Source: Croceivirga radicis (lineage in GTDB: Bacteria > Bacteroidota > Bacteroidia > Flavobacteriales > Flavobacteriaceae). Taken from it: a DNA stretch of 64,000 nt. Below, one piece after another: positions 10,349-64,000 of the stretch. The position numbers and the translations under genes are program-made. The notes under the pieces are model-generated. The model did no database searches, had not been told where the DNA came from, and saw only the letters and a program-made list of their open reading frames with translations. How positions within the stretch are numbered: position 1 is the first letter of the stretch; the number at the start of each line of letters is the position of its first letter. The stretch covers positions 62,001-126,000 of the forward strand of contig NZ_MTBC01000005.1 in NCBI RefSeq assembly GCF_002072105.2, read 5' to 3'.

Positions 10349-10352
10349 CCCA

Positions 10353-11003: not shown

Positions 11004-11091
11004 TCTATATAGTATTAATTACATTTAGTGGTTAAAAGCAAATCTACAATTTTTTTTGAATGATGAAAGTTTTTGTCCTAAAAATGATGGC

Positions 11092-11099
11092 TATCTTTG
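11092..11099 (+). promoter_or_regulatory. Putative -7 element of the RecD-like helicase gene
   Basis: TATCTTTG matches TAnnTTTG exactly and ends seven bases before the ATG at 11107, so the transcript would carry almost no 5' leader. The nearest TTG is 16 bases upstream, shorter than the usual spacing. Confidence 0.5.
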
Positions 11100-11106
11100 A
11101 CCAAGT

Positions 11107-15711: not shown

Positions 15712-16256
15712 TGGCAAAATGGCTTTCCCATATAATCTTATTTAAAATTATGGGTTGGAAATTCAATGGTGAATTTCCAGATGTTAATAAATGCGTCATT
15801 GCCGTTATACCACATACCCATTGGATGGATTTTGTTGTAGGGGTCTTATGTAGAAGTATCATCAACAAGAAAATGCATTTTATTGGTAAAAAAGCATTGT
15901 TTAAACCACCATATGGATGGTTTTTTAGGTGGATGGGAGGTACTCCTGTAGACCGGTCTAAGAACAGTAACCTAGTACAGTCCGTTGCCGCAATTTTTAA
16001 CCAGAAAAAAGTATTTAGGTTGGCCTTGGCTCCAGAAGGTACAAGGAAGAAAGTAACTGATTTAAAAACAGGGTTCTACTACATTGCATTAAGTGCCAAG
16101 GTTCCCATTGTACTAGTAGCCTTTGATTTTGGTAAAAAGGAAGTCAAATTTAGTAAGCCTTTTGATCCCACGGGCGATTACATTAAGGATTTAAACTACA
16201 TACGTACGTTTTTTAAAGGGGTAACAGGTAAAATTCCACAGTACAGTTATTCCTAA
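15711..16256 (+). CDS. 1-acyl-glycerol-3-phosphate acyltransferase-like protein
   Basis: This 181-residue protein has the PlsC-type acyltransferase motifs: HTHWMDF (HX4D catalytic pair) near residue 37, GGTPVDRSKN near residue 76 and the substrate motif APEGTRKK near residue 104. Its start overlaps the stop of the kdnB-like gene. Short PlsC-like proteins of this type may transfer acyl chains to phospholipids, ornithine lipids or lipid A; its place next to Kdo genes would fit an envelope lipid, but this is only inference. Confidence 0.82.
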   Translation: MAKWLSHIILFKIMGWKFNGEFPDVNKCVIAVIPHTHWMDFVVGVLCRSIINKKMHFIGKKALFKPPYGWFFRWMGGTPVDRSKNSNLVQSVAAIFNQKKVFRLALAPEGTRKKVTDLKTGFYYIALSAKVPIVLVAFDFGKKEVKFSKPFDPTGDYIKDLNYIRTFFKGVTGKIPQYSYS

Positions 16257-48577: not shown

Positions 48578-48652
48578 CGGGGTGTAGCGTAGCCCGGTTA
48601 TCGCGCCTGCTTTGGGAGCAGGAGGTCGCAGGTTCGAATCCTGCCACCCCGA
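48578..48652 (+). tRNA. tRNA-Pro (TGG)
   Basis: The acceptor strands CGGGGTG and CACCCCG pair, the anticodon loop is TTTGGGA (anticodon TGG), and the T-arm contains GGTTCGAATCC. No CCA is encoded. The 3' end marks the likely attachment site of the following island. Confidence 0.95.
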
Positions 48653-48676
48653 CAAATTATAGTATCAATCTATAAC

Positions 48677-48903: not shown

Positions 48904-50160
48904 ATGAAGACATCTTCAACATTCAGTATTCTCTTCAGGGCAGATTTTTCCAGAGTCAAGGACAATCAGGTATCACTTTATGCTAGAATCACGGTAAAAG
49001 GTAAACGGGCGGTCATCAGTTTAAAAAGAAAAGTTTTGATCTCCGATTGGGATGTACATAAAAACCGAGCTAAAGGGACTGGCCAAAAATCGAGAATACT
49101 AAACAGCTATTTGGACGAAACCTATAACCTTCTTTTTAATTCTTATCGGGATTTGATGGCCGGTAACAAGCTAATTACCGCGCAGGCTATAAAAGCTCGA
49201 TACTTGGGAAAGGATGAAAATAATCATTCCATTCTGAACATTATCGCCTATCACAATGAGGATATGAAAGGTAAGCTGAAATGGGGTACCCACAAGAACT
49301 ATTATACTACCCAAGGCTACATTTCGAAATTCCTTTTAAAATCTTATAAAACCTCCGATATATACTTGAAAGAACTGGATTATAACTTTATAACGCAGTT
49401 TGAAAAGTACCTTAGAAATTATATCCCGGAGGATCATCAACAACGAATGGGGAACAATACTGTGATGAAGCATATTGAGCGATTCAGGAAGTTGGTGAAC
49501 CTATCCATAAAGTTAGGATGGATTGAACGAGATCCCTTTGCGAACTTCAAGGCGAAGTTTATTAAAAATGAGCGGGGTTTTCTAAGTTTACTGGAGCTGA
49601 AAGCAATAGAAGACAAATCATTTACGACTACAAGGTTACAGCTGGTAAAAAATTTGTTCGTGTTTAGTTGCTATACCAGTATGAGTTATATCGATGTAAT
49701 TAATTTGACAGGAGAAAACCTCTGTATTGGAATTAATGGAGAACTCTGGATTTATTATCGGCGAGAAAAGACCACGAAACCTATCCGCGTTCCGTTATTG
49801 CCAAAAGCATTAGAAATTGTTGAGAAATATAAGAGTAATAAGAAATCTATTTCCCAAGGCACTATATTCCCTAAAATCAATAACCAAAAGCTAAACTCTT
49901 ATTTAAAGGAAATTGCCGATGTCTGTGGAATTAATAAGAACCTTACCTTTCATATCGCCCGGCATACCTTCGCAACAACGGTAACTTTGAGCAACGGTAT
50001 GCCAATCGAAACCGTCTCAAAACTATTAGGGCACACTAGGATATCCACTACCCAAATTTATGCAAAGGTTATAGAACGTAAGGTAAGTGATGATATGCAA
50101 CAATTAAGAGCTCAATTCAACGACATTGATAGTAAACCCCCTTCCAAACTATCAAATTAA
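48904..50160 (+). CDS. Tyrosine recombinase/site-specific integrase
   Basis: This 418-residue integrase has an N-terminal arm-binding region, a SAM-like core-binding region (about 110-220) and a catalytic region. HIARHTFATT near residue 358 supplies the HxxR pair, and LGHTRISTTQIYAKV near residue 378 the nucleophilic tyrosine. At the first conserved arginine the sequence reads CYTSMSYIDVINL, with Ser in place of Arg, as is known for the Bacteroides transposon integrase IntDOT. It faces away from the tRNAs and ends at a terminator. It probably integrated this island at tRNA-Pro. Confidence 0.9.
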   Translation: MKTSSTFSILFRADFSRVKDNQVSLYARITVKGKRAVISLKRKVLISDWDVHKNRAKGTGQKSRILNSYLDETYNLLFNSYRDLMAGNKLITAQAIKARYLGKDENNHSILNIIAYHNEDMKGKLKWGTHKNYYTTQGYISKFLLKSYKTSDIYLKELDYNFITQFEKYLRNYIPEDHQQRMGNNTVMKHIERFRKLVNLSIKLGWIERDPFANFKAKFIKNERGFLSLLELKAIEDKSFTTTRLQLVKNLFVFSCYTSMSYIDVINLTGENLCIGINGELWIYYRREKTTKPIRVPLLPKALEIVEKYKSNKKSISQGTIFPKINNQKLNSYLKEIADVCGINKNLTFHIARHTFATTVTLSNGMPIETVSKLLGHTRISTTQIYAKVIERKVSDDMQQLRAQFNDIDSKPPSKLSN

Positions 50161-50226: not shown

Positions 50227-51022
50227 TCAAATTTTTGTTTGTAAAACCACCTTTCTACTTCCTTTCAGCTCCTTTAATTCCAGCTGCAACTTTTCATTAT
50301 CCCCCAATACAAATTTAGGAAGTACATAAACAAAACGTTGTGAAAACCTATCCAATACTTGGTATTTTTTGATGATAAATCACTTCCTGTTTCAAACCTT
50401 GGAAAGAAGCTCTTCGTTTCTTGTTTCCATTGGTTCAATACACATTCAAATAGTCAATTTCAAAATTAATTCCGGAATTGTTCTGAACCTCTATAACCAA
50501 ATAGACTTCGGAACCATCATAGACCATTTTTTGTAGCTGTAATTTGATGCCCATTTGGCGTTTGGCTCTAATAGTCTGATAATTGGATTTCAGCAGGTAG
50601 TCGCAAGCTCTTTGAAAATAGGCTATCCGATTTTCATCACTTATGAGAGGTTGTTTTACCTGCTGTATTGGCTGTAGTGCTGGGGCCTCGTTTCCTATAC
50701 TTTCTTCTTCGTTTATGAAATAGTTCAACTTGGAAAGTTTTTCGGAATATTTCAAAATATACGAATATACCTTACCATCACTGGTTACGGCCAGTAGATT
50801 ACTCTCCAAACCCGGCTTTGCCTGTAGCAATCCTAAGTGTTGCTCCTTTTCCAAATTATAAGTGAATATAAAATGAGAGGCGCCTGTAATAGATTGCCGA
50901 ATTGGGCTAGGGAAGAACATAGCAACATTTTTTTGGTCATTGGCGTAAATAGTGTCCAAAGGTTGCTGTGCAGATATGGAAATCCAAGAGGTTAACAGTA
51001 AAATAAGAAGCGTATCTTTCAT
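50227..51022 (-). pseudogene. traN: Conjugative transposon protein TraN (DUF4138), broken
   Basis: The first 195 codons give a good TraN protein: a signal peptide, then YANDQKNVAMFFPSPIRQ, HLGLLQAKPGLESNLL and VYSYILKYSEKL. An in-frame TGA follows DYLNVY. Translation beyond it continues TraN-like (TNGNKKRRASFQ) and, after a frameshift near 50370, FVYVLPKFVLGDNEKLQLEL to a stop at 50227. TraN belongs to the outer-membrane part of the conjugation channel of Bacteroidota elements. The gene is therefore a recent pseudogene, and the element is unlikely to transfer itself. Confidence 0.82.
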
Positions 51023-51034
51023 GGCAAGGTGGTT

Positions 51035-52077
51035 TTAGTTGAACTGAAAATTGTTTTTTTGTTTCGATATTTTTATAATGAGCTGGTAGTTATCCAATAC
51101 GGTAACTCTTACATTTCTTTGATTGCGACGGAAAACATTTTTGATACCGCTTACTTGTGGTACACCAGGAATATTAATGTCCTCGACCATATCGCCTATT
51201 AGTTCATTTGTGATTTCTGCACGAAAACTATTTTCGATATAGATGCCTTCGCTACCATCCTGAAAATCGTGTGCTTTCAGTTTTACCGGCTTATGATTTA
51301 TATGTTCAATATCAATGATGGTACGATTTGGCTTAAAACTTACAAATCCATAAATAGGAGTATTTTTAGCGTAGTGCTCTTCATAAATATTTGCGGCTTT
51401 GTTTAAGCGTATCTGCAGCCTGTAATTGTTTTTGACCGTCTGATTACCGTCAACACGAACATAAATGAACGGGTCAGTTTTCAGGGAATTCAAATCATCA
51501 TTTTCAATGGGGTGCGAAGCAAAAAAGAGCTGATGCTCCAAGCCCAATTCCCTTAATACTACTTCCGTTCCTTTTTCTTCGATAGCGATTGTGGTGTCTT
51601 TTATCATATCCTGAGCAGATTTTAAGGGACCCTTATCGGTAGTGATGTTTTCGAACTTTCTTTTATAATATTGAATTTGACCTTGTTGATAGATATTATC
51701 AACAATTCGCATCTTTTCTTTATCCAATAAATCGGGGTCATAGACTCCTGTGGAGTCCAACAGGCGTTCATCATAGATGCTTGGGGCATTGTACTCAAAA
51801 AATCTTTTGCCATAGTACAGCATTGCTGAAAAAAACCAATATCATTCCCACCAACAATGCCCACATTGGCAATCGATTTATAATCTTCTATGTTTTTTGT
51901 AAGATGGGTGGGATATTCTTTAATTTTTGGTTGTACTTCTGATAGTGCATTTTTGTAGTTACTTGGAACAGGATGTTTGCTTTGGACTATAAGGTTGTCC
52001 CTAGGATTGGATTGGAAAAGGCTCCCAAGTAAATACGTCATTATCCACGTGGATAAAGGGTTATTTTTGCAGTTCAA
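51035..52077 (-). pseudogene. traM: Conjugative transposon protein TraM, frameshifted and truncated
   Basis: The C-terminal frame (51035-51823, 262 residues) is TraM-like: LRELGLEHQLFFASHPIE, DPFIYVRVDGNQTVKNNY, YGFVSFKPNRTI and VKLKAHDFQDGSEGIYIEN. The preceding part continues in another frame (up to 52077) as VGGNDIGFF, and the two join at a run of seven T near 51830, a typical slip site. The usual N-terminal membrane anchor cannot be followed beyond 52077. The stop is 13 bases before traN, the gene order seen in intact conjugative transposons. Confidence 0.72.
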
Positions 52078-52113
52078 TGATCTTTATTTTACCCAAAATC
52101 CATAGCTATGATC

Positions 52114-52371
52114 TTACTTTTCAAAATCGTTCAGCATTAAGGAAACATCTCCATAGGGCAGTCCCAACTAATTGATCAAAATGTCATATCCATGGTCATC
52201 GGTATACAAATCAACATTGGAATTCTCCCTTCTCAAGGTCAACAAGCTCAAACAGGTGCTCATCAAAAAATACTTGTACTCCAGCCAACCCCCAAATTTT
52301 CTGTTGTTGCTGAAGTCTTGTTTGTGTTTATGTAAACTGGGTTTGGATCAGAATGAATGGATGATTTTCAT
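52114..52371 (-). pseudogene. Remnant of a DUF6734-like glycosyltransferase-associated gene
   Basis: One continuous minus-strand frame reads MKIIHSF-stop-SKPSLHK, then FGGWLEYKYFLMS, NVDLYTDDHGYDILIN-stop-LGLPYGD and LNDFEK-stop. The residues match, as I remember it, the N-terminus of DUF6734 proteins (MKIvqSFWSKP...GGW...ELyTDd.G...Li..LgLPY). The first stop is a TGA where a TGG (Trp) is expected. The rest of the gene is missing. It follows glf by 51 bases, so it was once the last gene of the peptide operon. Confidence 0.65.
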
Positions 52372-52421
52372 ATAGTTAAGTTATGGTAAGAAATAATATG
52401 ACGTTGATATTAGAGTGAAAT

Positions 52422-53540
52422 TTATGGCATTGTATCGGCCTGTATTATTTTTTTTACTTTTGAAAGTGCTGAGGCGATTACTTGGTGCATATCATAATAT
52501 TTATATTCTGCTAAGCGCCCTCCAAAAATGACTTTTTCTTCCTTTTTTGCCAATCTTTGGTACACACCGAGTCTCTCCATGTTCATTCTATCATTTATTG
52601 GATAAAAAGCTTCAGAGCCTAAGGACCATTCTTGTGGATATTCTTTGGTTATTACTGTCCCCTTTTGCTTCCCAAATTCAAAATGTTTATGTTCGATTAT
52701 TCGTGTATATGGAACATTGAGATCAGTAAAATTTATTCCGGCTACCCCTTGATAATTTGGCAGGTTCAGATATTTATGCTCAAATCGTAAACTTCTGTAT
52801 TGCAAATGCCCAAATTTGTAATCATAGAACTCATCCAATTTGCCCGTAAACACTACACGATCTGTAATTTGGATAAGTTCATTGCGGTCTTTAAAGAAAT
52901 CGACTCCTGTCCTTACCTCAATACCATCCAAAAGACCATCGATTAATTTATTATACCCTCCAATTGGAATTCCTTGATATGTATCATTGAAATAATTGTT
53001 GTCATAGGTGAATCGAACAGGCAACCGTTTGATGATAAACTTTGGTAGTTCCTTGGCCTTTCTCCCCCATTGCTTTTCTGTGTATCCTTTAATGAATACA
53101 TTATAAATATCGGCTCCTACCATACTAATAGCTTGATCCTCAAGGTTTTGTGGTGCTGTAATATTTTCTTTTTCAATCTGTTCCTTAATCTTTTTCTCCA
53201 CCTCCTTGGGATTGCCTATTTTCCATAATTGGTAAAACGTGTTCATATTGAAGGGCAGGTTGAATAACTGTCCCTGATAATTAGCAAGTGGGGAATAGAT
53301 AAAGTTGTTAAACTCTACAAATGAGTTTACATAATCCCAAATTCCTTTATCATTTGTGTGAAAAATATGCGGACCATATTTATGTACATTTATTCCTTCT
53401 ACAGATTCACAATATACATTGCCCCCTTTATGGTCCCGTTTCTCGATGACCAGACATTTTTTTCCCATTTTAGTCATTTCATGGGCAAACACTGAGCCAA
53501 ATAGTCCAGATCCGACAATTAGAAAATCATACTTTTTCAT
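52422..53540 (-). CDS. glf: UDP-galactopyranose mutase
   Basis: This 372-residue flavoenzyme has the FAD motif FLIVGSGLFGSVFAHEM at the start, then KRDHKGGNVYC and VHKYGPHIFHTNDKGIWDYV near residue 52, and YTEKQWGRKAKELP near residue 154. It makes UDP-galactofuranose from UDP-galactopyranose. Its ATG is adjacent to the stop of the DUF707 gene. In this operon it would supply galactofuranose to one of the encoded glycosyltransferases. Confidence 0.93.
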   Translation of the reverse strand: MKKYDFLIVGSGLFGSVFAHEMTKMGKKCLVIEKRDHKGGNVYCESVEGINVHKYGPHIFHTNDKGIWDYVNSFVEFNNFIYSPLANYQGQLFNLPFNMNTFYQLWKIGNPKEVEKKIKEQIEKENITAPQNLEDQAISMVGADIYNVFIKGYTEKQWGRKAKELPKFIIKRLPVRFTYDNNYFNDTYQGIPIGGYNKLIDGLLDGIEVRTGVDFFKDRNELIQITDRVVFTGKLDEFYDYKFGHLQYRSLRFEHKYLNLPNYQGVAGINFTDLNVPYTRIIEHKHFEFGKQKGTVITKEYPQEWSLGSEAFYPINDRMNMERLGVYQRLAKKEEKVIFGGRLAEYKYYDMHQVIASALSKVKKIIQADTMP

Positions 53541-54182
53541 TTAGGTACTGTATATATCATAGCTTAAATCATGTTTGGTCATATACTCATGCAGTTCCTC
53601 CCTATTGTCCGATTGTACGGGACGGGTATGATTAGAACCGATATCATCGATAATAGCCATATTCATTTGAGTATAATCAAGAATTATGCCCCAATGAAAA
53701 TCTATGCCCCAACCACTCTTAGTCTCATTAAAGGTAAAGAGCACTTTCTTCAAAGCCTCTTGGGAAAAGCAAGGTTGCATAATTTCAATAAAATTGGTAT
53801 AACGGAGTATAGAATCCTTATGTTTTGTAGTATGGGGGTAAGAATAAAATGAATTGGCTATTGCTGGCTGTGCCGATGCCAACTGGTACTTATCCATAAG
53901 ATTGAATAATTTTTTAATACTGGAACTATCAATCGAAATATCGTCATCAGGCATGTATATATAATTATACCTATCTATTAAATCTGGATTCCTGGAAAGG
54001 TAGTCATAAATCAATTTAAACTTATATCCCTTGTCTGTAGTAACATAAGGGGTGTCATTCTTGTACAAGCCATATGAATCATCGTAAATGATCAAATGAA
54101 GGTCAAACTTGGAGTTTTCATCAACCCATTCTCGGTGTAAACTTGATTTGCCCACCGCTGCCATCACACAATTTTCATTCAT
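53541..54182 (-). CDS. DUF707 family protein, putative glycosyltransferase
   Basis: This 213-residue protein starts NENCVMAAVGKSSLHREWV and contains NYIYMPDDDISIDSSSI near residue 75, whose DDD resembles the metal-binding motif of GT-A glycosyltransferases, and KSGWGIDFHWGIIL near residue 160. This matches the DUF707 family. No signal peptide is seen. It lies next to glf without a gap and 67 bases after the broken GT90 gene. The acceptor is unknown. Confidence 0.78.
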   Translation of the reverse strand: MNENCVMAAVGKSSLHREWVDENSKFDLHLIIYDDSYGLYKNDTPYVTTDKGYKFKLIYDYLSRNPDLIDRYNYIYMPDDDISIDSSSIKKLFNLMDKYQLASAQPAIANSFYSYPHTTKHKDSILRYTNFIEIMQPCFSQEALKKVLFTFNETKSGWGIDFHWGIILDYTQMNMAIIDDIGSNHTRPVQSDNREELHEYMTKHDLSYDIYST

Positions 54183-54248
54183 AAGTATATATTATTTAAT
54201 GAAGGTAACAAAGTACTCTAAAGTTAATATTACATGACATAATTTTTA

Positions 54249-55085
54249 TTACAAATGATTTATTAATTGATTGGTGAAAAAATCAATTACACTTTTTTTA
54301 TTTAAGTTTTTTATTGCGTAGTTTCTAGCATTATCTGCAATAGCAATTGCATCTGAGTAGTTGTTTTCTGTCCCATTCTAATTGTACAATCAAATCACTA
54401 AGGTCCTCTTTTACAGGGATAAAATGCTAATAAGGAATAAGGTGGTCATAGAAATACTCTTGTTTGTTTTTATTTCTATCAACTATAAATAAAGGTCTAT
54501 TGGTATGGAGTAAAAACTTCAATCTACCACTAAACCCACGGGCACCACAATCTATCAAATATTTGTATTCGATATGATCTTCCAGGCTTAGGTATTTTGT
54601 AAAATCATGTATATGCCCTTTTGGAAAAGTTCTTTTCCATTCCATAGGAACAATCTCCATTTTTTCATCATAAAGATTGCCCAATCTTAATAGTTCGTAT
54701 CTTAGTGGTTGGGTGTTAAGGTTACCTATCCAAAAAAGTTTTTCGACGGAATGTTTTTTGTTTCCTTTATCTATAATTTTTTTTATCGTCTTACTGTAAG
54801 TAGTAATACCACATTCTATCCATTTATCAAAAGTGAAATCAGGACATGGAACAACATCACTGGATTTTGTATATCCAAAGGTTAATGTATCATTGATTTT
54901 TGACGAGACATCGTTGGTATTAATATAAAAATGAGTTGTTTTTAAAGCTTTTTTATCTTTTATCATATCAAAAGCTTCTTTATAAACAAGGTCATTGTTG
55001 AATTACTTCTTGATTCGTATCCAAAATGGTCAATAAAGGATACTTTTTGGTCAGAGTTAATAAAGACTTCAATATATTGATTCAT
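54249..55085 (-). pseudogene. GT90 (CAP10-like) glycosyltransferase, broken by two frameshifts and a stop
   Basis: The largest intact piece (54427-54966) contains WIGNLNTQPLRYELLRL and the GT90 hallmark YLIDCGARGFSGRLKFLL followed by EYFYDHLIPY. The N-terminus MNQYIEVFINSDQK lies in another frame from 55085, joined by a shift near 55010. After HLIPY an in-frame TAG replaces an expected sense codon and the frame continues as HFIPVKEDLSDLIVQLEW; a further shift near 54370 leads to NNYSDAIAIADNARNYAIKN and the final stop at 54249. GT90 proteins transfer xylose or glucose. This gene is inactive here. Confidence 0.82.
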
Positions 55086-55217
55086 AATTTATATTTATTC
55101 TGATGTTCACCATTCTAAGGATGAGGTGATTATACATAGGTTAATTTTAAACTTTAGTTTTGGTCAATATTATTTTATTGCTTTTTAGGAAGTCATGTAT
55201 TATAGAGAAATCCACAT

Positions 55218-56057
55218 TTACAATCGTTCAAGTCCGTTTGACAACAGATAATAGACCATCATGTTATCCTTAAAGTTGAAAGTGGTTTCCAAAGTGTTTA
55301 TAAGCTCTTGGTACGTGCGTTTTGACACACCATTACCTTTTATATATGTCTTGACAGCACTATCCCAACTTTTTTCCCATGATTCCGCTGTTTCTATCCA
55401 TTGGACATCTAAAGCTTTTTCCCTTAAATATCCGCAAATCTCATTTTTATTGGTCTCAAAATTCTCTTGAAGATTCTTTTTGACCTTTTCTAAAGATTCC
55501 GAATCATATTTTTGATACGTTTTCTGTAAGAGGGAATCAAAAAAATCGATGGCCTCCTTATTACTAAAACCTACAGAATGGCAAAAAACTGTGAGCAGTT
55601 CCAACATGATTTCAATGTTGCATTCCAAGGTCGACTCTTGGTAAGATTGGAATACCTGGATCAAAATCAAGGATATATCCCTCAATAGGATTTCAAAGGT
55701 GGCATTCGGTTCAATTGTATCCTCATAGGTAAATGCTCCATAGTGGATGGTATTATTTTTAAAATCTTGGAATAACGACGATTCCCGCAAATTTTTCACC
55801 TTGCTAAAGGATGGCCACTTGAAAAAAAAATCCTTAAAAAAGACATTGGCCTTTTCCGCTAAAGCCCTACATTTTTCTTTTTCTGTTCTTAAGACAAGCC
55901 TAATATGATCTCCCGATTCATGGCTCAACTTTAAAGAATAGGACCTTATATTTTCTTCTTCCAAAAAGGATTTGACTCCTTCACAAAGTAATATGTGCCA
56001 CATAGATTTGCCATAGATAAGCGAAATCCCTATTCCGGAAATTACATTTTTATCCAT
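55218..56057 (-). CDS. Stand-alone thiopeptide-type bacteriocin biosynthesis (SpaB_C-like) protein
   Basis: This 279-residue soluble protein resembles the C-terminal domain of lantibiotic dehydratases (TIGR03891/SpaB_C): WHILLCEGVKSFLEE near residue 20, SLKLSHESGDHIRLVLR near residue 40 and a helical C-terminal half. In split LanB systems this domain eliminates glutamate from activated Ser/Thr; in thiopeptide pathways it closes rings; in other pathways it uses aminoacyl-tRNA. No LanB glutamylation domain is in the window, so its role is open. It follows the GT2 gene by 12 bases within the peptide operon. Confidence 0.7.
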   Translation of the reverse strand: MDKNVISGIGISLIYGKSMWHILLCEGVKSFLEEENIRSYSLKLSHESGDHIRLVLRTEKEKCRALAEKANVFFKDFFFKWPSFSKVKNLRESSLFQDFKNNTIHYGAFTYEDTIEPNATFEILLRDISLILIQVFQSYQESTLECNIEIMLELLTVFCHSVGFSNKEAIDFFDSLLQKTYQKYDSESLEKVKKNLQENFETNKNEICGYLREKALDVQWIETAESWEKSWDSAVKTYIKGNGVSKRTYQELINTLETTFNFKDNMMVYYLLSNGLERL

Positions 56058-56069
56058 TTACCAGTATTT

Positions 56070-57191
56070 TCATAAATAATGTTGATTTAAGGTTACATAG
56101 CCAAAACTTCCTTTATTTGGGGTTAGCACTTTCCCTTCTAAGTTCTTTTTTGTTTTTATCCTATTGTTTATTTGTGAAAAGAACATGACCAAGTCCATGA
56201 ACAAGTCATTGTCCCAGACTTTATGGTAGATTTCGTTCCGTCCCTTTTCCGGACTCTGGAACATTCTTCCATTTTCGACCAATACCGTTTGTTTCCCTTG
56301 TTTGGGAAAAAGTTTTAAACCCTTATTGTTCCTTGAATATTCACCTGTTGTCCATTCGTCATTTTCCAAACGGTTCCTATATTCACGGGGCATCCCATTC
56401 CTTACAATTTCCTGGTTTCTGTTCTCTTTAAAGAGATTGTCTATGGATAATGAATTGTATAGGGCGTTGACTACTATGTTTCCCTTGAAAAAAGTTTGGT
56501 CATCCAACAGATACAACAACCCAGTAGTGGCATGGTCAATGTTCTTAAAATATATTTCCTTGATGTGATGGGTATTTGGTTCGTTCTCCAATCGGAGTAT
56601 ATCATCATGCTCCAAAGTTGTTAGGTGAGCCTTATTTATAATCTTCACTTTTCTTCCTAAAAGTTCCAAACGATTTCTCATGTCGTGGTCCTCAAAACCG
56701 TACCCTTTCATATTTTCATCGTATCCCTGTAATTTCACAAAGTCACTCTTTGTCATACATATCCTCCCAAAACCACCCTTGTCAGAAGTTAAGATATCGC
56801 CCGCCATATAAACATTGGCATTTTCAAGAAAGGACGTATTGATGTATTCCGCAAAACCGCGCCCAATAAAGTTATCTGCATCGACATTACAGACAATATC
56901 CCCGGACGCATTTTTGTGGGCTACATTTTTTGAGTGACTCATCAAAAAATATTTGGGTTTTCTTGTCCATATATATTTCAATACCCCAGAGTCCATATAA
57001 TCTTTCATTTCCCTCCTGATCCATTCATCCATCCCATCTTTTGAATTATAATTGAGCACAACAAATTCAACATTTCCGTACGACAGGTTATCTTCGATGT
57101 TTTTTGGAAGGGTCTGTTTCAAAAAACTCAGTCGGTTCATACATACTGTACAGAAGGATATTTTATATTTTTCTGTTTTTAGGCTTTTCAT
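56070..57191 (-). CDS. Family 2 glycosyltransferase with galactosyltransferase-like C-terminal region
   Basis: This 373-residue GT-A protein starts KISFCTVCMNRLSFLKQTLP, has the DxD motif NVDADNFIG (Asp104, Asp106) and the segment GYDENMKGYGFEDHDMRNRL near residue 165, typical of the GT7C domain found in galactosyl- and N-acetylgalactosaminyltransferases. No membrane segment is seen, so it should act in the cytoplasm, on the precursor peptide or on a lipid-linked acceptor. It lies nine bases after the HlyD gene. Glycocin operons also place a GT2 next to a C39 transporter. Confidence 0.85.
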   Translation of the reverse strand: MKSLKTEKYKISFCTVCMNRLSFLKQTLPKNIEDNLSYGNVEFVVLNYNSKDGMDEWIRREMKDYMDSGVLKYIWTRKPKYFLMSHSKNVAHKNASGDIVCNVDADNFIGRGFAEYINTSFLENANVYMAGDILTSDKGGFGRICMTKSDFVKLQGYDENMKGYGFEDHDMRNRLELLGRKVKIINKAHLTTLEHDDILRLENEPNTHHIKEIYFKNIDHATTGLLYLLDDQTFFKGNIVVNALYNSLSIDNLFKENRNQEIVRNGMPREYRNRLENDEWTTGEYSRNNKGLKLFPKQGKQTVLVENGRMFQSPEKGRNEIYHKVWDNDLFMDLVMFFSQINNRIKTKKNLEGKVLTPNKGSFGYVTLNQHYL

Positions 57192-57200
57192 TGGATTTTT

Positions 57201-58535
57201 TTAATATTTGAACACATCTTTGAACTTATAAAAGATACGTTCTGCTACACTCAGGTTTTCGGTGATGATCTCTGCATTGCCCAGAAGCTCCTGTTCAAAA
57301 GGGAGCCTTCTGTTGTAGGATGTTGTAGTGCCATGGGGAAGGGAAATATAAATGAAGTAATTTCCTTCCGAGTTTGGAGAAACCGATATGTTCTCCACTC
57401 TGCCAATCAACATACCATATTGTTGGTATGGGAAATTATCCAGTTTTACCAAGACTTTTTGCCCCTGGACCACCTTGCCCGCATTCTGTGAGGGAAGTAC
57501 CAGTTTGCCCACCAATTTATCCGTATCTGTTGGGAGGATGGAAAAGACCACTTCGCCCGAACCAATGTACTGGTTTTCGCCCCAAAACTCTTGAAAGCCC
57601 ACTACACCTTCTATGGATGAGGACAACACATAATTGTGCTCCCATTCCCTGACGGCCTTTTTGAGGGCATTGAATGTTTGTGACAGATTTGCCAAAAGTC
57701 TCGTATCATCCTCCTGCTTGTTGATTTTAGTTGTCTTAAGGGTCTGTCCCGCAGAGGCAATGGCCTCCCGCATCTGCGAAATGGAAATGGCCATGGCACT
57801 AAGGTTCTTCTCCATTTGGAGGAATTCCTGTTTTTTGGATTCAAATTCCTGTTGGGAAATGACCCCTTTTTCAGATAATTGCCTATAACGCTCGTAGTCC
57901 CTTTTCTCCAGTTCGTATTCCTGTTCCAACACCTTTTTTTGGTCCATTTGGCTTTTAAGCCTCTGTTTTATTTCTTCCAGGGTTTGACGGTTGCCGGACA
58001 ATTGGGTGGTATAGGGATCCAAATCCTTCAATAAATGGTAATCCACATAGCTTTTCTCAAAATTGATATAGGCTGTCTCAATATCCCCCAGGACAAATTG
58101 GGAAGCGGAGTCGATGGGAAACAAAAGGCCTTGGGAACTTTGCTGTACGGTATCCAAAATGGATTTCAGTTTGTATACGTCTTCCACGTTGGCAGTATTT
58201 CTCAGTACCGCCAAACGTTGGTCCACTGCCACGGTATCCCCATTCTCTATATAGATTTTCTGCAAAGCTCCTGAGTATCGTGCCACGATTTGCTCTGTCG
58301 GCCTTTCAGTGGTCACGATGACCTTGGCAGTGACAAAATCTGGGTATTTGATCATGAAGGAGAGTGCCAAAATTATGACAGTGAACATGAATATGAGTGT
58401 AATGCCCCAGCGTACGATCCACGCAGGGGGATTGGTCAGTATCTCCTGTACTTCCTCTGACCGTAGGTTCAACTTTTCTACGTTCGAATTTGGCTCCTCT
58501 GCATTTGAGTTTGGCATCTTTGGTATCCTCATCAT
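57201..58535 (-). CDS. HlyD-family secretion adaptor
   Basis: This 444-residue periplasmic adaptor has a cytoplasmic N-terminus with the near-repeat NAEEPNSNVEKLN, one membrane helix at residues 41-62, a lipoyl half-motif (ARYSGALQKIYIENGDTV near residue 85), a long coiled coil (about 150-290) and a C-terminal beta-barrel region. It links an inner-membrane ABC exporter to an outer-membrane channel. Its ATG overlaps the stop of the exporter gene by four bases. No TolC gene is in the window. Confidence 0.9.
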   Translation of the reverse strand: MMRIPKMPNSNAEEPNSNVEKLNLRSEEVQEILTNPPAWIVRWGITLIFMFTVIILALSFMIKYPDFVTAKVIVTTERPTEQIVARYSGALQKIYIENGDTVAVDQRLAVLRNTANVEDVYKLKSILDTVQQSSQGLLFPIDSASQFVLGDIETAYINFEKSYVDYHLLKDLDPYTTQLSGNRQTLEEIKQRLKSQMDQKKVLEQEYELEKRDYERYRQLSEKGVISQQEFESKKQEFLQMEKNLSAMAISISQMREAIASAGQTLKTTKINKQEDDTRLLANLSQTFNALKKAVREWEHNYVLSSSIEGVVGFQEFWGENQYIGSGEVVFSILPTDTDKLVGKLVLPSQNAGKVVQGQKVLVKLDNFPYQQYGMLIGRVENISVSPNSEGNYFIYISLPHGTTTSYNRRLPFEQELLGNAEIITENLSVAERIFYKFKDVFKY

Positions 58536-60730
58536 GCATTTAATTTTTCAAGTTCCAATTGGTTGCTCACCAAATTATAGTATGCCCCGTTGAGTTCCAA
58601 TAGCTCTTGGTGGGTCCCCGATTCCTTTATCCTACCCTCGTCCATTACTACAATCTGGTCGGCATGTTTTACCGTGCTCAGTCTATGTGCTATTATGATG
58701 ACCGTCCTGTCCTTAAAAAACTTATCCAGATTCTCCATGATGATCCGTTCATTTTTGGCATCGAGGGCAGAGGTGGCCTCGTCAAAACACAGTATCTGGG
58801 GATCCTTATAAACGGCACGGGCTATAAAGAGCCGTTGTTTCTGTCCTGTGCTTACCCCAACCCCCTCGTTCCCGATCTTGGTGTTGAACCCCAAGGGAAG
58901 GGATTGGATAAAATCATGGATGTTGGCAATCTTTGTGGCTTTAATTAATCGTTCCTGGTCTATGGTGTCCTCGCCCACGGCAATGTTGTAGGCAATGGTG
59001 TCGTTGAACACATATCCCTCTTGCATTACGGCCCCACAATGGTCCCGCCAGGCCTTATGTGATATACTTCCAAGATAGTGTTCCCCGTATTGGACGTTCC
59101 CTTTGTCGGGATCATAAAATTTCAACAATAGCTTCATCAAAGTGGTCTTGCCGCTGCCACTGGCGCCCACTATAGCGGTCACTTTATTGGCAGGAATCAT
59201 CATGTCCAAATCTTTGATGACATTCTCGTCACTGCCCAGATAACGAAAGGACACTTTTTTAAGTTTTATGTCCTGGCCGGGCTTGATCTTCTTTATCAGT
59301 TGCTTTTCCCTGTTTTCCTCGTCGTCCTTTTCGTGGATCTCGGCCAAACGCTCCATACTGATCTTCGCATCCTGATAGGAGCGGATAAAGCCCACCATTT
59401 GTCCGATAGGGGAATTGAGCTGCCCTATGATGTACTGTATGGAGAGCATCATCCCCAGGGTGATGTTCCCCTCGATGACCAGCACGGCCGAGGTAAAGGT
59501 GATGATGATGTTCTTGAGCTCGTTGATGACCGAGGAGCCCACCCCTTGGGTCTGTTCCAGTTTCAGGCTCTGGATGGACACCCTGAACAGACGTGCCTGG
59601 ACAAACTCCCATTTCCAGCGCTTTTGCTTTTCCGCATTGTGCATCTTTATTTCCTGCATGCCGTTGACGAGCTCTATGACCGTGCTCTGCTCCTGGCTCA
59701 ATTGGGAGAACCGTTTGTAATCCAGTTCCTTACGTCTTTTGAGGAAGTACATGATCCAAAGGATGTACAGGATACTGCCCACGGCAAATATGCCAAAAAT
59801 GGTAGGACTGTAATAAATAAGCACGGCCCCGAACACCACCAAGTTGAACATGGAGAACAGGGTACTCAATGTGGAACCGGTCAAAAGGTTCTCTATACGG
59901 CTGTGGTCATTGATGCGCTGCATGATGTCCCCCGTCATGCGGGTATCAAAATAGGCAATGGGCAGGGCCATGAGCTTGATAAAGAAATCCGAGACCAGGG
60001 AAATATTGATACGGGTGCTCAAATGCAACAGGATCCAGCTCCGGAAGATATCGACACTGGTACGCCCCAAAAAGAGCATCACCTGGGCGGCCAGGACCAC
60101 ATAGATAAAGTTGATGTCCCGGTTTTGGATGCCCACATCCACAATGCTCTGGGTGAGGAAAGGGAAGATGAGCTGCAATAAGCTACCCACAAGCAATCCA
60201 ATGCACAATTGGACCAGCAGCCCTTTGTACTTGAACAGGTATTGGAACAAGAAACGCAACGATTTTTTGTCCGTGTCCTCCCAATGTAGTTTTTTAAACT
60301 TTGGAGTGACCTCCAATAACAGGACAATGCCCTCTTTGGTATGCTCCGTGGCATTGTTGCCAATCCAGCGGGGCATAAACTCTTCTTTGCTGTATGTTAT
60401 AAGCCCATACGAGGGGTCTGAAATATAGACCACGTCTTTTTTTATGGCATAGACAACCACAAAATGGTTCTTGTTCCAATGGACGATGCAGGGCAGGGGG
60501 ACATCCTCCAACTGCCCAAAATCAAGCTTTGCCCCAATGGTCTTAAACCCGATGGCCTCGGCCGCATCGCTAAGTTTTAGCAGATTGCTGCCGGCCCTGG
60601 TCGTCTCTGAAAGCTCCCTGATCTCTTGCAACGAAATCAGTTTGCCATAATGTTTGGCAACAATACGCAAACAAGTGGGGCCACAGTCCTTGGAATCGGG
60701 TTGTTTATAAAATGGGAAGGACGTTTTCAA
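58532..60730 (-). CDS. Peptidase C39-containing ABC exporter (bacteriocin processing and secretion)
   Basis: This 732-residue protein has an N-terminal C39 peptidase with a complete triad: Cys16 in DSKDCGPTCL, His89 in WNKNHFVVVY and Asp105 in ISDPSYG. Six membrane segments (about 165-440) and an ATPase domain follow, with Walker A IVGASGSGKTTLMKLL near residue 507, the signature VSTGQKQR (Thr in place of the usual Gly) and Walker B ILCFDEATSALD. Such proteins cut double-glycine leaders and export the core peptide. The start is a TTG, as a TAA lies five codons upstream. The precursor gene lies two genes upstream. Confidence 0.93.
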   Translation of the reverse strand: MKTSFPFYKQPDSKDCGPTCLRIVAKHYGKLISLQEIRELSETTRAGSNLLKLSDAAEAIGFKTIGAKLDFGQLEDVPLPCIVHWNKNHFVVVYAIKKDVVYISDPSYGLITYSKEEFMPRWIGNNATEHTKEGIVLLLEVTPKFKKLHWEDTDKKSLRFLFQYLFKYKGLLVQLCIGLLVGSLLQLIFPFLTQSIVDVGIQNRDINFIYVVLAAQVMLFLGRTSVDIFRSWILLHLSTRINISLVSDFFIKLMALPIAYFDTRMTGDIMQRINDHSRIENLLTGSTLSTLFSMFNLVVFGAVLIYYSPTIFGIFAVGSILYILWIMYFLKRRKELDYKRFSQLSQEQSTVIELVNGMQEIKMHNAEKQKRWKWEFVQARLFRVSIQSLKLEQTQGVGSSVINELKNIIITFTSAVLVIEGNITLGMMLSIQYIIGQLNSPIGQMVGFIRSYQDAKISMERLAEIHEKDDEENREKQLIKKIKPGQDIKLKKVSFRYLGSDENVIKDLDMMIPANKVTAIVGASGSGKTTLMKLLLKFYDPDKGNVQYGEHYLGSISHKAWRDHCGAVMQEGYVFNDTIAYNIAVGEDTIDQERLIKATKIANIHDFIQSLPLGFNTKIGNEGVGVSTGQKQRLFIARAVYKDPQILCFDEATSALDAKNERIIMENLDKFFKDRTVIIIAHRLSTVKHADQIVVMDEGRIKESGTHQELLELNGAYYNLVSNQLELEKLNA

Positions 60731-60780
60731 ATTATCTTCGATTTAATGAGTTGTTTCGAACTAACAGGATTAAATAACAT

Positions 60781-61953
60781 TCAATCTAAGAACATATCTA
60801 AATCTCGCTCTAATTCACTAAAACCTTTTTTAAAATTATTAGCAGCAAGGTAACGCCCCTCAATTACCCCTTTTTCATCTATTAAAATAAGAGCTGGAAT
60901 AGGTTTGATGTTATAGAGTTCACTTATAGGTATTTGATTGTCCCATGAATTGACATGATGCCAAATATCTACACCCTCCCTTTTTATTGCTTCTTTCCAT
61001 GCCTTTTTATTTTCATCAATTGAAACCCCTATAATTTGAAAACCCTTACAATTATATTTTTTATATAATCTTATTAAATCAGGATGATTCTCAAGGCATG
61101 GGGCGCACCATGATGCCCAAAAATCTAATAGGACAAATTCATCCTTGAAATTTTCCAAGCTTATTTCATTACCATAAACATCCCTTAATTTAAAACTTAA
61201 CGCTTTACTATTAACTGCAGCCCCCCTTGCCAATTCAATTTTTTTTTCAAATTGTTTCCCGAATAAACTACTTTTTATTTCGGGTTTAAAATTTTTGTAA
61301 TATTGTTCAAGTGTGTCAATTGGCAACTTTTTAGAATAAAATTTAAGCCAGTAAGGATTTAAATATGATTGAGGATTATTTCTCAAATAATTTAATCGTA
61401 CATTCATCATCCTTTTTTGCCTGTTTTCCCATTCAATGCTTAGATATACGATTGATTCATCTATTGATTCAATCTTATCTGGATTATTTATTTTCTTTTC
61501 TAATAATTCATTCCATTTTGATTTTATTGAATCTATCTCTAAATGCAAATACTCCAATTGATTTTCTAAATATTCATGCTCCTTCTGTGTTGCGGAACCT
61601 ATTATTTTCGCGTTTTTAAATTTGTCTTCCGACAAGGAGATATAGTTCTTACCTGGTTCAATAAAAAAAAGGAGTACATTCGGGTCACTCATTCTCTGAG
61701 ACTTTTTGTTTCCTTCAATACGAGCATATATGGCACCATTTATGAATCCCTTTGAATAAAATTTTCCATTATTTATCGGAATGGTATCAAAAACTGAGAT
61801 TCCGAGAGTATCTTGATAGATAAAAATCAACTGTTCAGTATTTGTGCCTTTGAACTTACCATAAAGTTGAAACTCTCTATTCTCTTTTTGAGAGCATCCA
61901 ACAAATATAATATTGAAAATCAAATTAATAACTATTACTAAACCTACTCTCAT
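60781..61953 (-). CDS. TlpA-like thioredoxin lipoprotein (DUF4369 type)
   Basis: This 390-residue protein has a signal peptide with lipobox IIFVGC, a beta-rich DUF4369-like N-terminal half, and a thioredoxin domain with active site LDFWASWCAPCLENHPDLI near residue 272. It should sit in the periplasm anchored to a membrane and catalyse thiol-disulfide exchange. Between the precursor and exporter genes, it is a natural partner for the cysteines of the exported peptide. Its base composition is lower in G+C than the exporter gene next to it. Confidence 0.85.
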   Translation of the reverse strand: MRVGLVIVINLIFNIIFVGCSQKENREFQLYGKFKGTNTEQLIFIYQDTLGISVFDTIPINNGKFYSKGFINGAIYARIEGNKKSQRMSDPNVLLFFIEPGKNYISLSEDKFKNAKIIGSATQKEHEYLENQLEYLHLEIDSIKSKWNELLEKKINNPDKIESIDESIVYLSIEWENRQKRMMNVRLNYLRNNPQSYLNPYWLKFYSKKLPIDTLEQYYKNFKPEIKSSLFGKQFEKKIELARGAAVNSKALSFKLRDVYGNEISLENFKDEFVLLDFWASWCAPCLENHPDLIRLYKKYNCKGFQIIGVSIDENKKAWKEAIKREGVDIWHHVNSWDNQIPISELYNIKPIPALILIDEKGVIEGRYLAANNFKKGFSELERDLDMFLD

Positions 61954-61996
61954 TAATCCACTATTTAAAATTCATTTTATAAAATGGAACAAAAGA

Positions 61997-62096
61997 TTTG
62001 CCCGTTGTGCACTTAAATTATCACTAATTCCTAATTGTCTTGAAAATCTATACCATGAATAAAATGATAACTTTTCATAAATACACAACAGGCAAA
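61997..62096. repeat. Inverted repeat downstream of the precursor gene
   Basis: TTTGCCCGTTGTG (61997-62009) and CACAACAGGCAAA (62084-62096) are inverted copies with one mismatch, 74 AT-rich bases apart, in the gap between the precursor and tlpA-like genes. The pair could form a long hairpin in the operon RNA or be the ends of a small mobile element. Confidence 0.6.
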
Positions 62097-62113
62097 ATCA
62101 ACTTAATTTAGAA

Positions 62114-62302
62114 TCAAGTTCCACAACCCCCATCACCGCCTTGGGTAATGTAGCATTTTGGACATTCACCACTGCAATCAGAATCGGACTTGCAATCATC
62201 AAAACAACCACTTCCATACCCTCCAAAAACAGTCTTTAACTGTTCCTTTTGGAGCAGTTCGTCAGCTCCAAGATTCAACTTTTTTAAACTTAACTTCTTC
62301 AT
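62114..62302 (-). CDS. Double-glycine leader, cysteine-rich precursor peptide
   Basis: This 62-residue peptide has a leader MKKLSLKKLNLGADELLQKE followed by QLKTVFGG, with Gly27-Gly28 as the C39 cleavage site and hydrophobic residues at -4, -7 and -12 as required by C39 peptidases. The 34-residue core has six cysteines (33, 37, 43, 47, 50, 60), spacing C-x3-C-x5-C-x3-C-x2-C-x9-C, and many Gly, Asp and Ser. The leader resembles the Bacteroidota GG-type natural product precursors. The segment CKSDSDCSGECPKC recalls knottin peptides. It sits between the VKOR fusion gene and the thioredoxin and exporter genes. Its function, such as bacteriocin or signal, is unknown. Confidence 0.85.
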   Translation of the reverse strand: MKKLSLKKLNLGADELLQKEQLKTVFGGYGSGCFDDCKSDSDCSGECPKCYITQGGDGGCGT

Positions 62303-62342
62303 TTTTATATAAAATTTAAAATTAACTTTGCCCTGAACGTTT

Positions 62343-62422
62343 AGGGACCGTCAAGGTTTCGGTCCATGCTTCGCGAAAGCAATATCGTTCCCTCGGCCAA
62401 GGGTTTTCTTGGCCGTTTTTTA
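62343..62422. repeat. Cluster of three short stem-loops upstream of the precursor gene
   Basis: The gap contains GGACCG...CGGTCC (near 62343-62364), GCTT-TCGCG-AAGC type palindrome GCTTCGCGAAAGC (near 62369), and CGGCCAAG...CTTGGCCG (62395-62418). The last is followed by a T-run on the plus strand only. They may adjust transcript levels between the VKOR gene and the precursor gene. Confidence 0.5.
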
Positions 62423-62426
62423 TCTT

Positions 62427-64000
62427 CTATATTAAAACATTCTTTAAATCTTCAACGCTATACTCCTTGGGTAGTTCGTGCCCGTTGATGAAAATTGTGG
62501 GGGTATGGGTTATCTTTTCAGCATTGCACCATTGGCGCATGGCCTTTATTTTTTCATCCTGCTGCTCAAGCTCCCCATTCATGGGGTATCTTTGGGCAAA
62601 AACCCCATAATCCTTACTCTCGGAAAGGTACCAATCGTCAAGTGCCTTTTGGGTCTCTTTTTTATCCTCCTTGGAAGCAATGGCCAAAAAATGCCGTACA
62701 GGTTTGGCCTTAAAGTCCTTCTTATCCGCAGTTGCTGTAAAAAGAATCTGTAGGTTTATCTTATTATCTTCAACCAACCCCTCTAATACAGGATGTGCCT
62801 TGGCGCATGGGCCACAATAGGGGTTGCACACTTTTATGACATCATATCTTGCACCATCATTTTTTAGTGTTATACCCAATCCTTCAACAGGGGTCTCTAT
62901 TTTTCGGTTCTTGCCCAAAAGCCCCATCAACACATCGGGATTGTTCTTTATTTTTTTGAGCCCTCTTTTGTAGAGGTTGGTCTCTTTCTCTTTTTCCATC
63001 AAAGGCTTGAGCCATTTCCATATAGGGATGGGAATAAACAGTAGTGCTATGAGCAAGGGCAATGAACTCACCTCTACACGGGCCAGATGGAACCCGCCCA
63101 AAAAAGCGGTCGTAGCTTCCAGGAGCAGCACTGCCTGTACCACAATGCAGAATTTGCACCACTGCTTAATGACCACTCCTTGATAATAGGCTGATAGGGC
63201 CACCACGGGAAGGGCGGCAAAACCCATATAGGCCAAAGGGGTCAAGGATATATTGGAAAAGCCATTGATGAGCAAAAAGAAAAACGTGCCAAAGAAATAC
63301 GTAAAGCCAATCAACCCCAAACTCAGCTTTCCGTTAAAAACTTTTGCATATTTAGAGTTTAGGACAGAATCACAGTTCACCTTCTTGCCACCAGAGCAGA
63401 AACTTTGTAAGGTGGGGTTGTATTTGTCCACCTCGTACCAAAGCAGCATGCCCCCCATGGTAAGCCCAACCAGTTTCAGCAAAGCGTACCCGCCCAACAA
63501 TAATAGGTCTGTTCCATGTATAAGTGGGGAATTAAAAAAGTTCAAAATTGCCCAGAGCAACAGGAACAAGGCTCCTATCCATTTAAGTGCGGTCATTGTC
63601 CTTCTTTCGGACAGTTTCTTTTCGATGCCCGGTTCGCCTGAAAGTTCACTTGTTTCCACCAAAAGGCATATTCCCGACCATCGTTTTAAAAAATCATTCG
63701 TGGGAATTGAAACCTGTTTCCCTTTATCATCCAGATAAACCGTTTCCTCCTTAGAATAACGGACCAAAGCATGGAACATTCCACCACTATCGGTTAATTG
63801 TACAATACATGGAAGTGGAAGCTCTTTAAGCTTTTCTTTATCTATCTTAACAGCAAGATTCTCAATATTATACTTTGACAAAGTTTCTGAAACAGCCAAT
63901 AAACTGGGATGTTCGGGATGGGAAAGGATAGTGTCTCCCAGAAATTGGTTGGTATGCTTGATCTTGAGTTGGGCCAATAAATTTCCAGCCGCAAATGTGC
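62427..64000 (-). CDS. VKOR-thioredoxin fusion with C39-like N-terminal domain (5' end cut by window edge)
   Basis: The frame is open to the end of the window; the first visible start-like codon is a TTG at 63977. About 516 residues are visible. A C39-like region comes first (HPEHPSLLAVSETLSKYNIE, then GMFHALVRYSKEETVYLDD), whose cysteine region would lie outside the window. A VKOR membrane domain follows, with FCSGGKKVNCDS and the active-site pair WCKFC. A C-terminal thioredoxin-like domain has CNPYCGPCAKAHP. Such fusions make disulfide bonds in the periplasm using quinones. As the first visible gene of the peptide operon, it is the likely oxidase for the six-cysteine product. Confidence 0.88.
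   Translation of the reverse strand, partial: TFAAGNLLAQLKIKHTNQFLGDTILSHPEHPSLLAVSETLSKYNIENLAVKIDKEKLKELPLPCIVQLTDSGGMFHALVRYSKEETVYLDDKGKQVSIPTNDFLKRWSGICLLVETSELSGEPGIEKKLSERRTMTALKWIGALFLLLWAILNFFNSPLIHGTDLLLLGGYALLKLVGLTMGGMLLWYEVDKYNPTLQSFCSGGKKVNCDSVLNSKYAKVFNGKLSLGLIGFTYFFGTFFFLLINGFSNISLTPLAYMGFAALPVVALSAYYQGVVIKQWCKFCIVVQAVLLLEATTAFLGGFHLARVEVSSLPLLIALLFIPIPIWKWLKPLMEKEKETNLYKRGLKKIKNNPDVLMGLLGKNRKIETPVEGLGITLKNDGARYDVIKVCNPYCGPCAKAHPVLEGLVEDNKINLQILFTATADKKDFKAKPVRHFLAIASKEDKKETQKALDDWYLSESKDYGVFAQRYPMNGELEQQDEKIKAMRQWCNAEKITHTPTIFINGHELPKEYSVEDLKNVLI

Follow-up and report, generated by a model that had tools for sequence, protein, structure and literature searches.

A recurrent GT2-SpaB_C gene pair in a peptide-secretion operon on a mobile island of Croceivirga radicis

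Introduction

Operons for glycocins such as sublancin and glycocin F bring together thiol oxidoreductases and a GT2 enzyme with a C39 exporter and a precursor that has a double-glycine (GG) leader. The same elements stand together in a minus-strand operon within a 64,000-nucleotide (nt) stretch of the 3.6-Mb genome of Croceivirga radicis (genome G000, contig C16, positions 62001-126000; hereafter the window). Its 11 genes, two of them broken, encode a VKOR-thioredoxin fusion, a Cys-rich GG-leader precursor, a TlpA-like protein, a C39-ABC exporter, HlyD, a GT2/GT7C glycosyltransferase, a SpaB_C protein, GT90, DUF707, glf and DUF6734. However, unlike in glycocins, the GT2 has no match named SunS, its partner is a SpaB_C protein, Tyr is the first residue after the GG motif (Tyr +1), cores without Cys occur, and the host belongs to the Bacteroidota.

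Class I lanthipeptides of Bacteroidota, among them pinensin with its split LanB, are described as having GG leaders and C39 exporters (PMC7268733). The SpaB_C fold is shared with them, and LanB and LanC also occur in some loci bearing the GT2-SpaB_C pair, but neither was found in the window genome, and the glycosyltransferase (GT)-linked SpaB_C proteins lack elimination motifs. TbtD and PbtD are likewise stand-alone SpaB_C-fold proteins without an elimination role, and the title of one TbtD-like structure entry names a bound leader fragment. Here, however, no LanB was found, so that there is no known source of dehydro residues, and the partner is a glycosyltransferase. Walker et al. (2020; PMC7268733) report that clusters for class I lanthipeptides contain stand-alone elimination-domain proteins, frequently as fusions with PIMT methyltransferases, and suggest a non-elimination reaction for them. 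In those proteins, as here, an elimination domain is coupled to another tailoring enzyme, but the present partner is a GT2, and the pair also occurs outside lanthipeptide clusters. Tyr O-glycosylation, a proposal for the present system, is known in cacaoidin, a ribosomally synthesized and post-translationally modified peptide (RiPP; PMC8068269). Unlike the peptide considered here, cacaoidin is a class V lanthipeptide of Streptomyces. We know of no SpaB_C partner for it. Pairs of the GtfA-GtfB type consist of a catalytic GT and a non-catalytic, substrate-binding partner; that partner is a dead GT, whereas in the GT2-SpaB_C pair it would be a dead eliminase.

By the criteria examined, the operon belongs to neither the glycocins nor the lanthipeptides. 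Among the papers listed by searches of an open-access library, no title or abstract beginning described a GT2-SpaB_C pair (subscription papers and preprints lay outside this search). We think it probable that the operon, carried by a mobile island, makes a glycosylated, disulfide-bonded secreted peptide, with the GT2 glycosylating a substrate held by the SpaB_C protein.

Distribution of the gene pair

Scanning genome contigs with four GT2 proteins yielded 58 loci. A GT2 gene is followed on the same strand by a SpaB_C gene in 26 of them, giving 27 adjacent pairs (L026 has two), with gaps between -3 and +26 nt in 20 pairs. Further pairs lie in the window itself and in L180 (Flagellimonas onchidii), which the GT2 scan missed. 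Because this adjacency recurs in many genera, chance is a very unlikely explanation. The pair label is clustered along the GT2 tree, changing 7 times over 64 rows versus 21 times in shuffles. A second architecture is found in L037, L042 and L044, where the GT2 gene flanks divergently transcribed, longer SpaB_C-like genes. The remaining 29 loci include 13 lone GT2 genes of one Chitinophagaceae clade, 4 further Chitinophagaceae, 6 alphaproteobacteria and 4 others, together with L049 and L060, in which SpaB_C is present but farther from the GT2. The lone-GT2 clade (L039-L041, L045, L046, L048, L050-L053, L059, L061, L077) shows no adjacent GT-type SpaB_C; in five of its loci the GT2 relative lies beside a gene that we take to be thymidylate-kinase-like.

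SpaB_C of the GT-linked kind is rare in the family. Matches were obtained in 3 of 397 family genomes, that of the window included, and the three non-self matches, from two genomes, all adjoin a window-like GT2 (G153 and G377 belong to the same family as G000). A class-wide profile search gave matches in 4 of 395 genomes (G000, G407, G744 and G579). Both matches in G407 stand beside a GT2, and that in G744 is LanB-linked. Separately, G402 has a weak SpaB_C match. Plasmid searches returned no SpaB_C and two weak, partial GT2 matches.

The 26 pair loci contain genes for C39-ABC (19), HlyD (18), VKOR-C39 (9), TlpA (8), LanC-like proteins (9, of which that of L031 is under the Pfam cut-off), LanB (7), glf (4), SPASM plus a presumed ATP-grasp-like protein (3), and sulfotransferase plus CysD (2); names follow Pfam, and partial genes at locus edges are counted. 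The pair therefore travels with disulfide-type, lanthipeptide-type and grasp-with-spasm-like loci. The original prediction had staked its case on such glycosyltransferases and SpaB_C co-occurring with GG-leader precursors in other genomes, and they do. Sulfotransferase, adenosine phosphosulfate (APS) kinase and CysD genes lie in the GT2-SpaB_C loci of Aquimarina (L026/L198) and Flagellimonas meridianipacifica (L032), which suggests a sulfated glycan there.

Mirror-tree comparison gave a rho of 0.67 for GT2/SpaB_C (23 loci) and 0.69 for GT2/exporter (13 loci); as these values match, the overall comparison is not discriminating. In the small set of Flavobacteriaceae alone, GT2/SpaB_C reached 0.43 (p 0.01, 12 loci) versus -0.03 for GT2/exporter (8 loci), and on those same 8 loci GT2/SpaB_C gave 0.45 (p 0.10).

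The SpaB_C protein

The sequence match of the window protein is marginal (PF14028, 25.5 bits; cut-off 24.4). The top Foldseek matches of its predicted structure (predicted local distance difference test, pLDDT, 92.1) are TbtD, PbtD, a [4+2] aza-cyclase and MadB, the TbtD/PbtD-type pyridine synthases being best (template-modelling score TMq 0.68-0.75 against TbtD chains). Profile and predicted structure both assign it the SpaB_C fold, while PDB sequence searches with the single protein and with its profile gave only chance-like matches.

The NisB variants R786A, R826A and H961A are reported to keep glutamylation and to lose elimination (PMC4979651); H961A is also reported to abolish dehydration, with a mild effect of R784A (PMC4341554). 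Aligned with NisB (4wd9), the LanB-linked control of L036 shows FFLRY..H.R.R, ERYG and H..NR at R775, H782/R784/R786, R826 and H961 (counted in the alignment). Since R826, the least sure position, and H961 are placed unsurely by such a residue count, motifs were counted free of alignment. Among 26 GT-linked SpaB_C proteins, HxRxR and RY are absent and a C-terminal H..NR is found once; of nine LanB-linked controls, 9, 9 and 8, respectively, have these three motifs. The window protein has no His beyond residue 160, and the elimination residues corresponding to NisB R786, R826 and H961 were not found in it. SpaB_C fragments from L047 and L055 were left out of alignments and counts; that of L020, a draft with many split genes, was kept among the 26 and left out of alignment A3 and the tree. 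In that tree a long, fully supported branch sets off eight LanB-linked sequences, and all nine are separated from the rest with 77% support. Four loci (L021, L023, L027, L036) carry a motif-bearing LanB-linked SpaB_C in addition to the GT-linked one. SpaB_C of the latter kind pairs with GT2, not with LanB, and, judged from its lost motifs, is not a lanthipeptide eliminase.

The LanB glutamylation domain PF04738 had no match in G000, nor in G153, and the LanC cyclase PF05147 had none in G000. A canonical class I lanthipeptide was rejected on these grounds. Nor does a thiopeptide or pyritide [4+2] cyclase fit, as it works on LanB-made dehydroalanines. Given the lost motifs and the unmatched LanB and LanC, the added lanthipeptide or thiopeptide step that the original prediction saw in SpaB_C is not supported.

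The pair could still be a new dehydratase, in which a sugar placed by GT2 on Ser/Thr is eliminated by SpaB_C to a dehydro residue that LanC, where present, or Cys then attacks. The neighbour census found LanC-like genes in 8 of its 29 loci, which would fit, as would L022 and L058, whose fetched loci have LanC without LanB (the genome of L058 has no PF04738 match). However, L058 is a fragmented draft with its exporter in three open reading frames (ORFs), LanC was unmatched in four of five pair genomes checked, G000 included (the fifth, G791, has one below cut-off), cores without Cys exist, and the GT-linked proteins lack the elimination motifs; we give this reading the least credence of all. 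Somewhat less improbable is that SpaB_C is an enzyme with another reaction, as in the [4+2] cyclases, with GT2 modifying the peptide independently. The nearest folds, TbtD and PbtD, are enzymes of that kind, and Walker et al. (2020; PMC7268733) propose other modifications by stand-alone elimination domains. However, only Met1 and Gly49 are invariant among 26 sequences, with Trp20 and Asn102 nearly so, which is little for an active site; the coupling to GT2 is tight in 27 pairs, and a search of the genome yielded no LanB that could supply dehydro residues. [4+2] chemistry requires such residues.

The glycosyltransferase

In the GT2, D106, D168 and H195 are invariant among 26 sequences and D104 nearly so. 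Its model (pLDDT 87.7) bears a weak resemblance to GT-A enzymes, among them chondroitin polymerase and polypeptide GalNAc-transferases, with a TM score of ~0.4 of the whole protein. In profile searches CHSY3 and beta4GalT appeared, with weak E-values from 2e-4 upwards. From conserved residues and model it is probably an active enzyme. Of 271 fold matches with E<=0.001, the best 50 comprise mannosyl-, GalNAc-, TarP/TarS, chondroitin/heparosan and comparable transferases, and none of these 50 is named a peptide S-glycosyltransferase. Against NCBIfam, which we take to include a SunS model, five matches were obtained at E<=0.1, none named SunS. With no SunS-named family or fold match, a SunS-type glycocin was rejected. 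Cys is absent from the whole core in L069 and from the printed parts in L043 and L049 (the latter with GT2 and SpaB_C separated); S-glycosylation therefore cannot be the general rule, and obligate Cys glycosylation was also rejected. The original prediction of a glycocin-like, disulfide-bonded peptide is accordingly half right: a secreted, probably disulfide-bonded GG-leader peptide and the co-occurrence of GT2 and SpaB_C stand, whereas a glycocin in the SunS sense and the lanthipeptide/thiopeptide step do not.

The GT genes might instead serve a cell-surface glycan and merely adjoin the peptide operon. The breakage of GT90 and DUF6734 would suit this, and glf and DUF707 occur also in polysaccharide loci. 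However, the GT2 gene follows HlyD by 9 nt, most pair loci carry the exporter genes counted above, and Tyr +1 is common to most of their precursors, making a purely surface role very unlikely.

Precursor peptides

The window precursor has a core with the Cys spacing C-x3-C-x5-C-x3-C-x2-C-x9-C, and a relative in L180 is 76% identical over 51 amino acids (aa). Its leader scores 18.2 bits against TIGR04149, below the curated cut-off of 25, and is thus outside that family; with C39-ABC and HlyD in the operon, the GG leader nonetheless marks a C39-exported peptide. A PDB sequence search with the precursor gave only chance-like matches (best E 0.15).

For comparison, a leader model (A5) was built from 17 leaders cut at GG, 14 of them from pair loci, with the +1 residue excluded, and searched against 397 family genomes and 23 genomes behind the loci, after which neighbourhoods were read. 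Loci rather than precursors were counted, and on both sides a single leader-matched precursor with Tyr after GG sufficed to score its locus as Tyr. Tyr directly follows GG in 12 of 13 leader-matched pair loci versus 4 of 36 pair-free loci that share the leader (Fisher 2.3e-7); L116, one of the 36, was viewed with 1.5-kb flanks only. The single exception among the 13, L047, also has LanB. The counts leave out L135 (no precursor in the rescan), L182 (at a contig end and taken as part of the L031 operon), the second VKOR operon of L035 (an internal control), the 2-residue core L035_9231, and pair loci L021, L027, L038, L056 and L070, in which no precursor was seen; L029 and L055 fall outside the leader-matched count (leader E > 0.05). 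By profile, GT-type SpaB_C was found in 0 of 15 control family genomes. L180, detected only through its leader, holds two precursors, both with Tyr, and VKOR, TlpA, exporter, HlyD, GT2 and SpaB_C in the order of the window.

The association has limits. A leader-matched precursor was found in only 13 of 28 pair loci, and some Tyr loci also hold leader-matched ORFs that begin otherwise (L020 has one, the L026 operon two). In a looser count that admits any precursor seen, 22 pair loci qualify and 13 of them have Tyr +1, versus 2 of 20 controls (p 0.001); split by LanB, the figure is 13 of 17 LanB-free pair loci (p 5e-5; L024, L029, L058 and L069 fail) and 0 of 5 bearing LanB.

Tyr +1 might instead be a shared feature of ancestry or peptide activity, unconnected with GT2. 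This seems unlikely, but some observations lend it weight. The leaders are related, and Tyr +1 occurs in four loci without the pair (L131, L147, L181, L183), none of which has VKOR plus a full exporter. A phylogeny-controlled independent-pairs test agreed in direction with a link between Tyr and the pair but was underpowered, with 3 pairs, 2.2 the same way and 0 opposite (median p 0.5). However, the exporter tree mixes loci of both kinds, whereas Tyr tracks the pair, and exporter descent therefore does not account for Tyr; Chitinophaga eiseniae has Tyr at its pair locus and in 0 of 8 others, and the pair operon of L035 has Tyr where its neighbouring operon has Ser.

By eye, the printed Tyr-starting cores share no further position that always carries a hydroxyl residue, which makes Tyr1 the simplest common acceptor. 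From the sequences, Tyr1 is likeliest to be the acceptor or a recognition residue of the core, and it could equally be the latter.

Two loci deserve a separate remark. L035 carries (15560-16127), in the VKOR operon adjoining but lacking GT2-SpaB_C, two precursors with the pattern C..C..CC..C..C, which presumably resemble inhibitor-cystine-knot peptides. In the L192 region 9917-11437 of C. eiseniae, whose genome has 11 leader matches, a GG precursor is followed by ATP-grasp-like and SPASM-like genes.

Proposed mechanism

The order of steps that we infer is as follows. The precursor would be made with its GG leader, and in the cytosol, with the leader still attached, its core would receive a sugar from the GT2. 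The SpaB_C protein, a relative of elimination domains that has lost their motifs, would hold the substrate, most simply by the leader, for the GT2, with no dehydration; the Tyr that becomes residue 1 upon cleavage is the candidate site. The C39-ABC exporter and HlyD would then cleave after GG and export the peptide, and the VKOR-thioredoxin fusion and TlpA would form disulfides by oxidative folding after export. The degenerate C39-like domain of the VKOR fusion may dock the leader. UDP-galactofuranose (UDP-Galf) would be supplied by glf, and glycan extension would fall to DUF707, formerly together with GT90 and DUF6734.

A more specific version is held only tentatively. Here GT2 and a pseudo-eliminase SpaB_C would form a two-component peptide glycosyltransferase: SpaB_C would dock the leader and set the Tyr, which adjoins the GG site, in the active site of the GT, so that the peptide acquires an O-glycosylated N-terminal Tyr. 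The cassette would be able to move between Bacteroidota RiPP loci of the knottin-like, lanthipeptide and grasp-with-spasm kinds. The cassette is real and recurrent and comes with a new sequence rule; if these proposals hold, it represents a new variant of glycosylated RiPP systems.

Some findings weigh against the glycosylation proposal as a whole. G579 has a truncated SpaB_C (165 aa) without a GT2 within 13.8 kb. The window SpaB_C is only 27% identical to that of L180 while the precursors share 76%, a fast divergence that is odd for a leader-binding protein. PF04738 occurs somewhere in 20 of the 25 genomes behind the loci, where LanB could act from elsewhere, though not in G000; it is absent from the other five, one of which (that of L049) has GT2 and SpaB_C apart. 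Finally, since GT90 and DUF6734 are broken, this copy of the operon may be decaying.

For a group of stand-alone lanthipeptide elimination domains, the proposal offers a testable role as carrier for a glycosyltransferase rather than catalyst. The rule of GG followed by Tyr together with GT2-SpaB_C is a way to find candidate glycosylated RiPPs in Bacteroidota, and, if Tyr1 is indeed the acceptor, a leader-guided, site-specific tool for Tyr glycosylation would follow.

Genomic context

The operon is the cargo of a 17.3-kb tRNA-Pro island with an integrase and decayed conjugation genes (Table 1). Integrase and conjugation remnants adjoin tRNA-Ser and tRNA-Pro. The 22-bp tRNA-Pro end has an exact second copy 1.9 kb past the window end (E 1.9e-6), which places the whole operon inside the island. 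Both same-genus genomes examined retain tRNA-Ser/tRNA-Pro; in the 18 kb fetched, neither shows a counterpart by homology to the integrase of the window or to any gene of the operon, and neither had a SpaB_C match.

Table 1. Features of the operon and island (window coordinates; extended coordinates run past the window end)
Feature	Position	Strand	Basis or remark
attL, 22-bp 3' end of tRNA-Pro	48633..48654	+	identical attR at extended 65909-65930 (C16:127909-127930)
Tyrosine integrase of island	48904..50160	+	near tRNA-Ser and tRNA-Pro
Conjugation gene remnants: DUF4138 protein 50435-51022 (presumably TraN-like), TraM 51035-51823	50435..51823	-	near tRNA-Ser and tRNA-Pro
DUF6734 pseudogene, internal stops, 3' end fused to TraM remnant	51790..52371 (limits approximate)	-	ORF 51622-52077
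glf, UDP-galactopyranose mutase (putative UDP-Galf donor)	52422..53540	-	TIGR00031, 423 bits, cut-off 303.75
DUF707 putative glycosyltransferase	53541..54182	-	Pfam
GT90 pseudogene	54427..55085; pieces 54963-55085 (40 aa, start) and 54427-54966 (179 aa)	-	ORFs, Pfam
GT-linked SpaB_C protein without elimination motifs, proposed adaptor	55218..56057	-	PF14028, motif count, fold
GT2/GT7C glycosyltransferase; D104, D106, D168, H195 kept; SpaB_C partner	56070..57191	-	Pfam, alignment, fold
HlyD-type adaptor	57201..58535	-	Pfam
C39 peptidase-ABC exporter	58532..60730	-	Pfam; 90% identity to L180 exporter
TlpA-like thiol oxidoreductase (DUF4369 + redoxin)	60781..61953	-	Pfam
GG-leader precursor, 62 aa; core starts Tyr-Gly, 6 Cys	62114..62302	-	ORF; TIGR04149-like leader
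C39-like/VKOR/thioredoxin fusion, 527 aa	62427..64000 in window; ORF 62427-64010, ATG (C16:126010)	-	PF03412, PF07884, PF13462

The gene set on the minus strand and its short gaps were rightly recognized from the outset, with corrections to individual genes. Exporter and HlyD overlap by 4 nt, GT2 and SpaB_C are 12 nt apart, and DUF707 and glf, whose reading frames are open, abut (0 nt). The two GT90 pieces lie in different frames and are followed by a stop; the DUF6734 pseudogene has in-frame stops, and its ORF (51622-52077) continues into the TraM remnants. The VKOR fusion gene starts 10 bases outside the window. Its protein also has an N-terminal C39-like domain (PF03412, 35.8 bits), the start of which is unmatched, as the match runs from profile position 24 on; its Thioredoxin_4 domain (PF13462) scores 22.5 bits, slightly under the cut-off of 23.2.

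The intergenic segment 62303-62426, between the VKOR and precursor genes, contains G+C-rich hairpins and has a better fold than its shuffled versions, of which 2 in 200 did as well (z -2.5); it is possibly an element of mRNA processing or stability. About 51 nt upstream of the VKOR gene start, outside the window, lies TATATTTG, which we take to resemble the Bacteroidota -7 promoter box.

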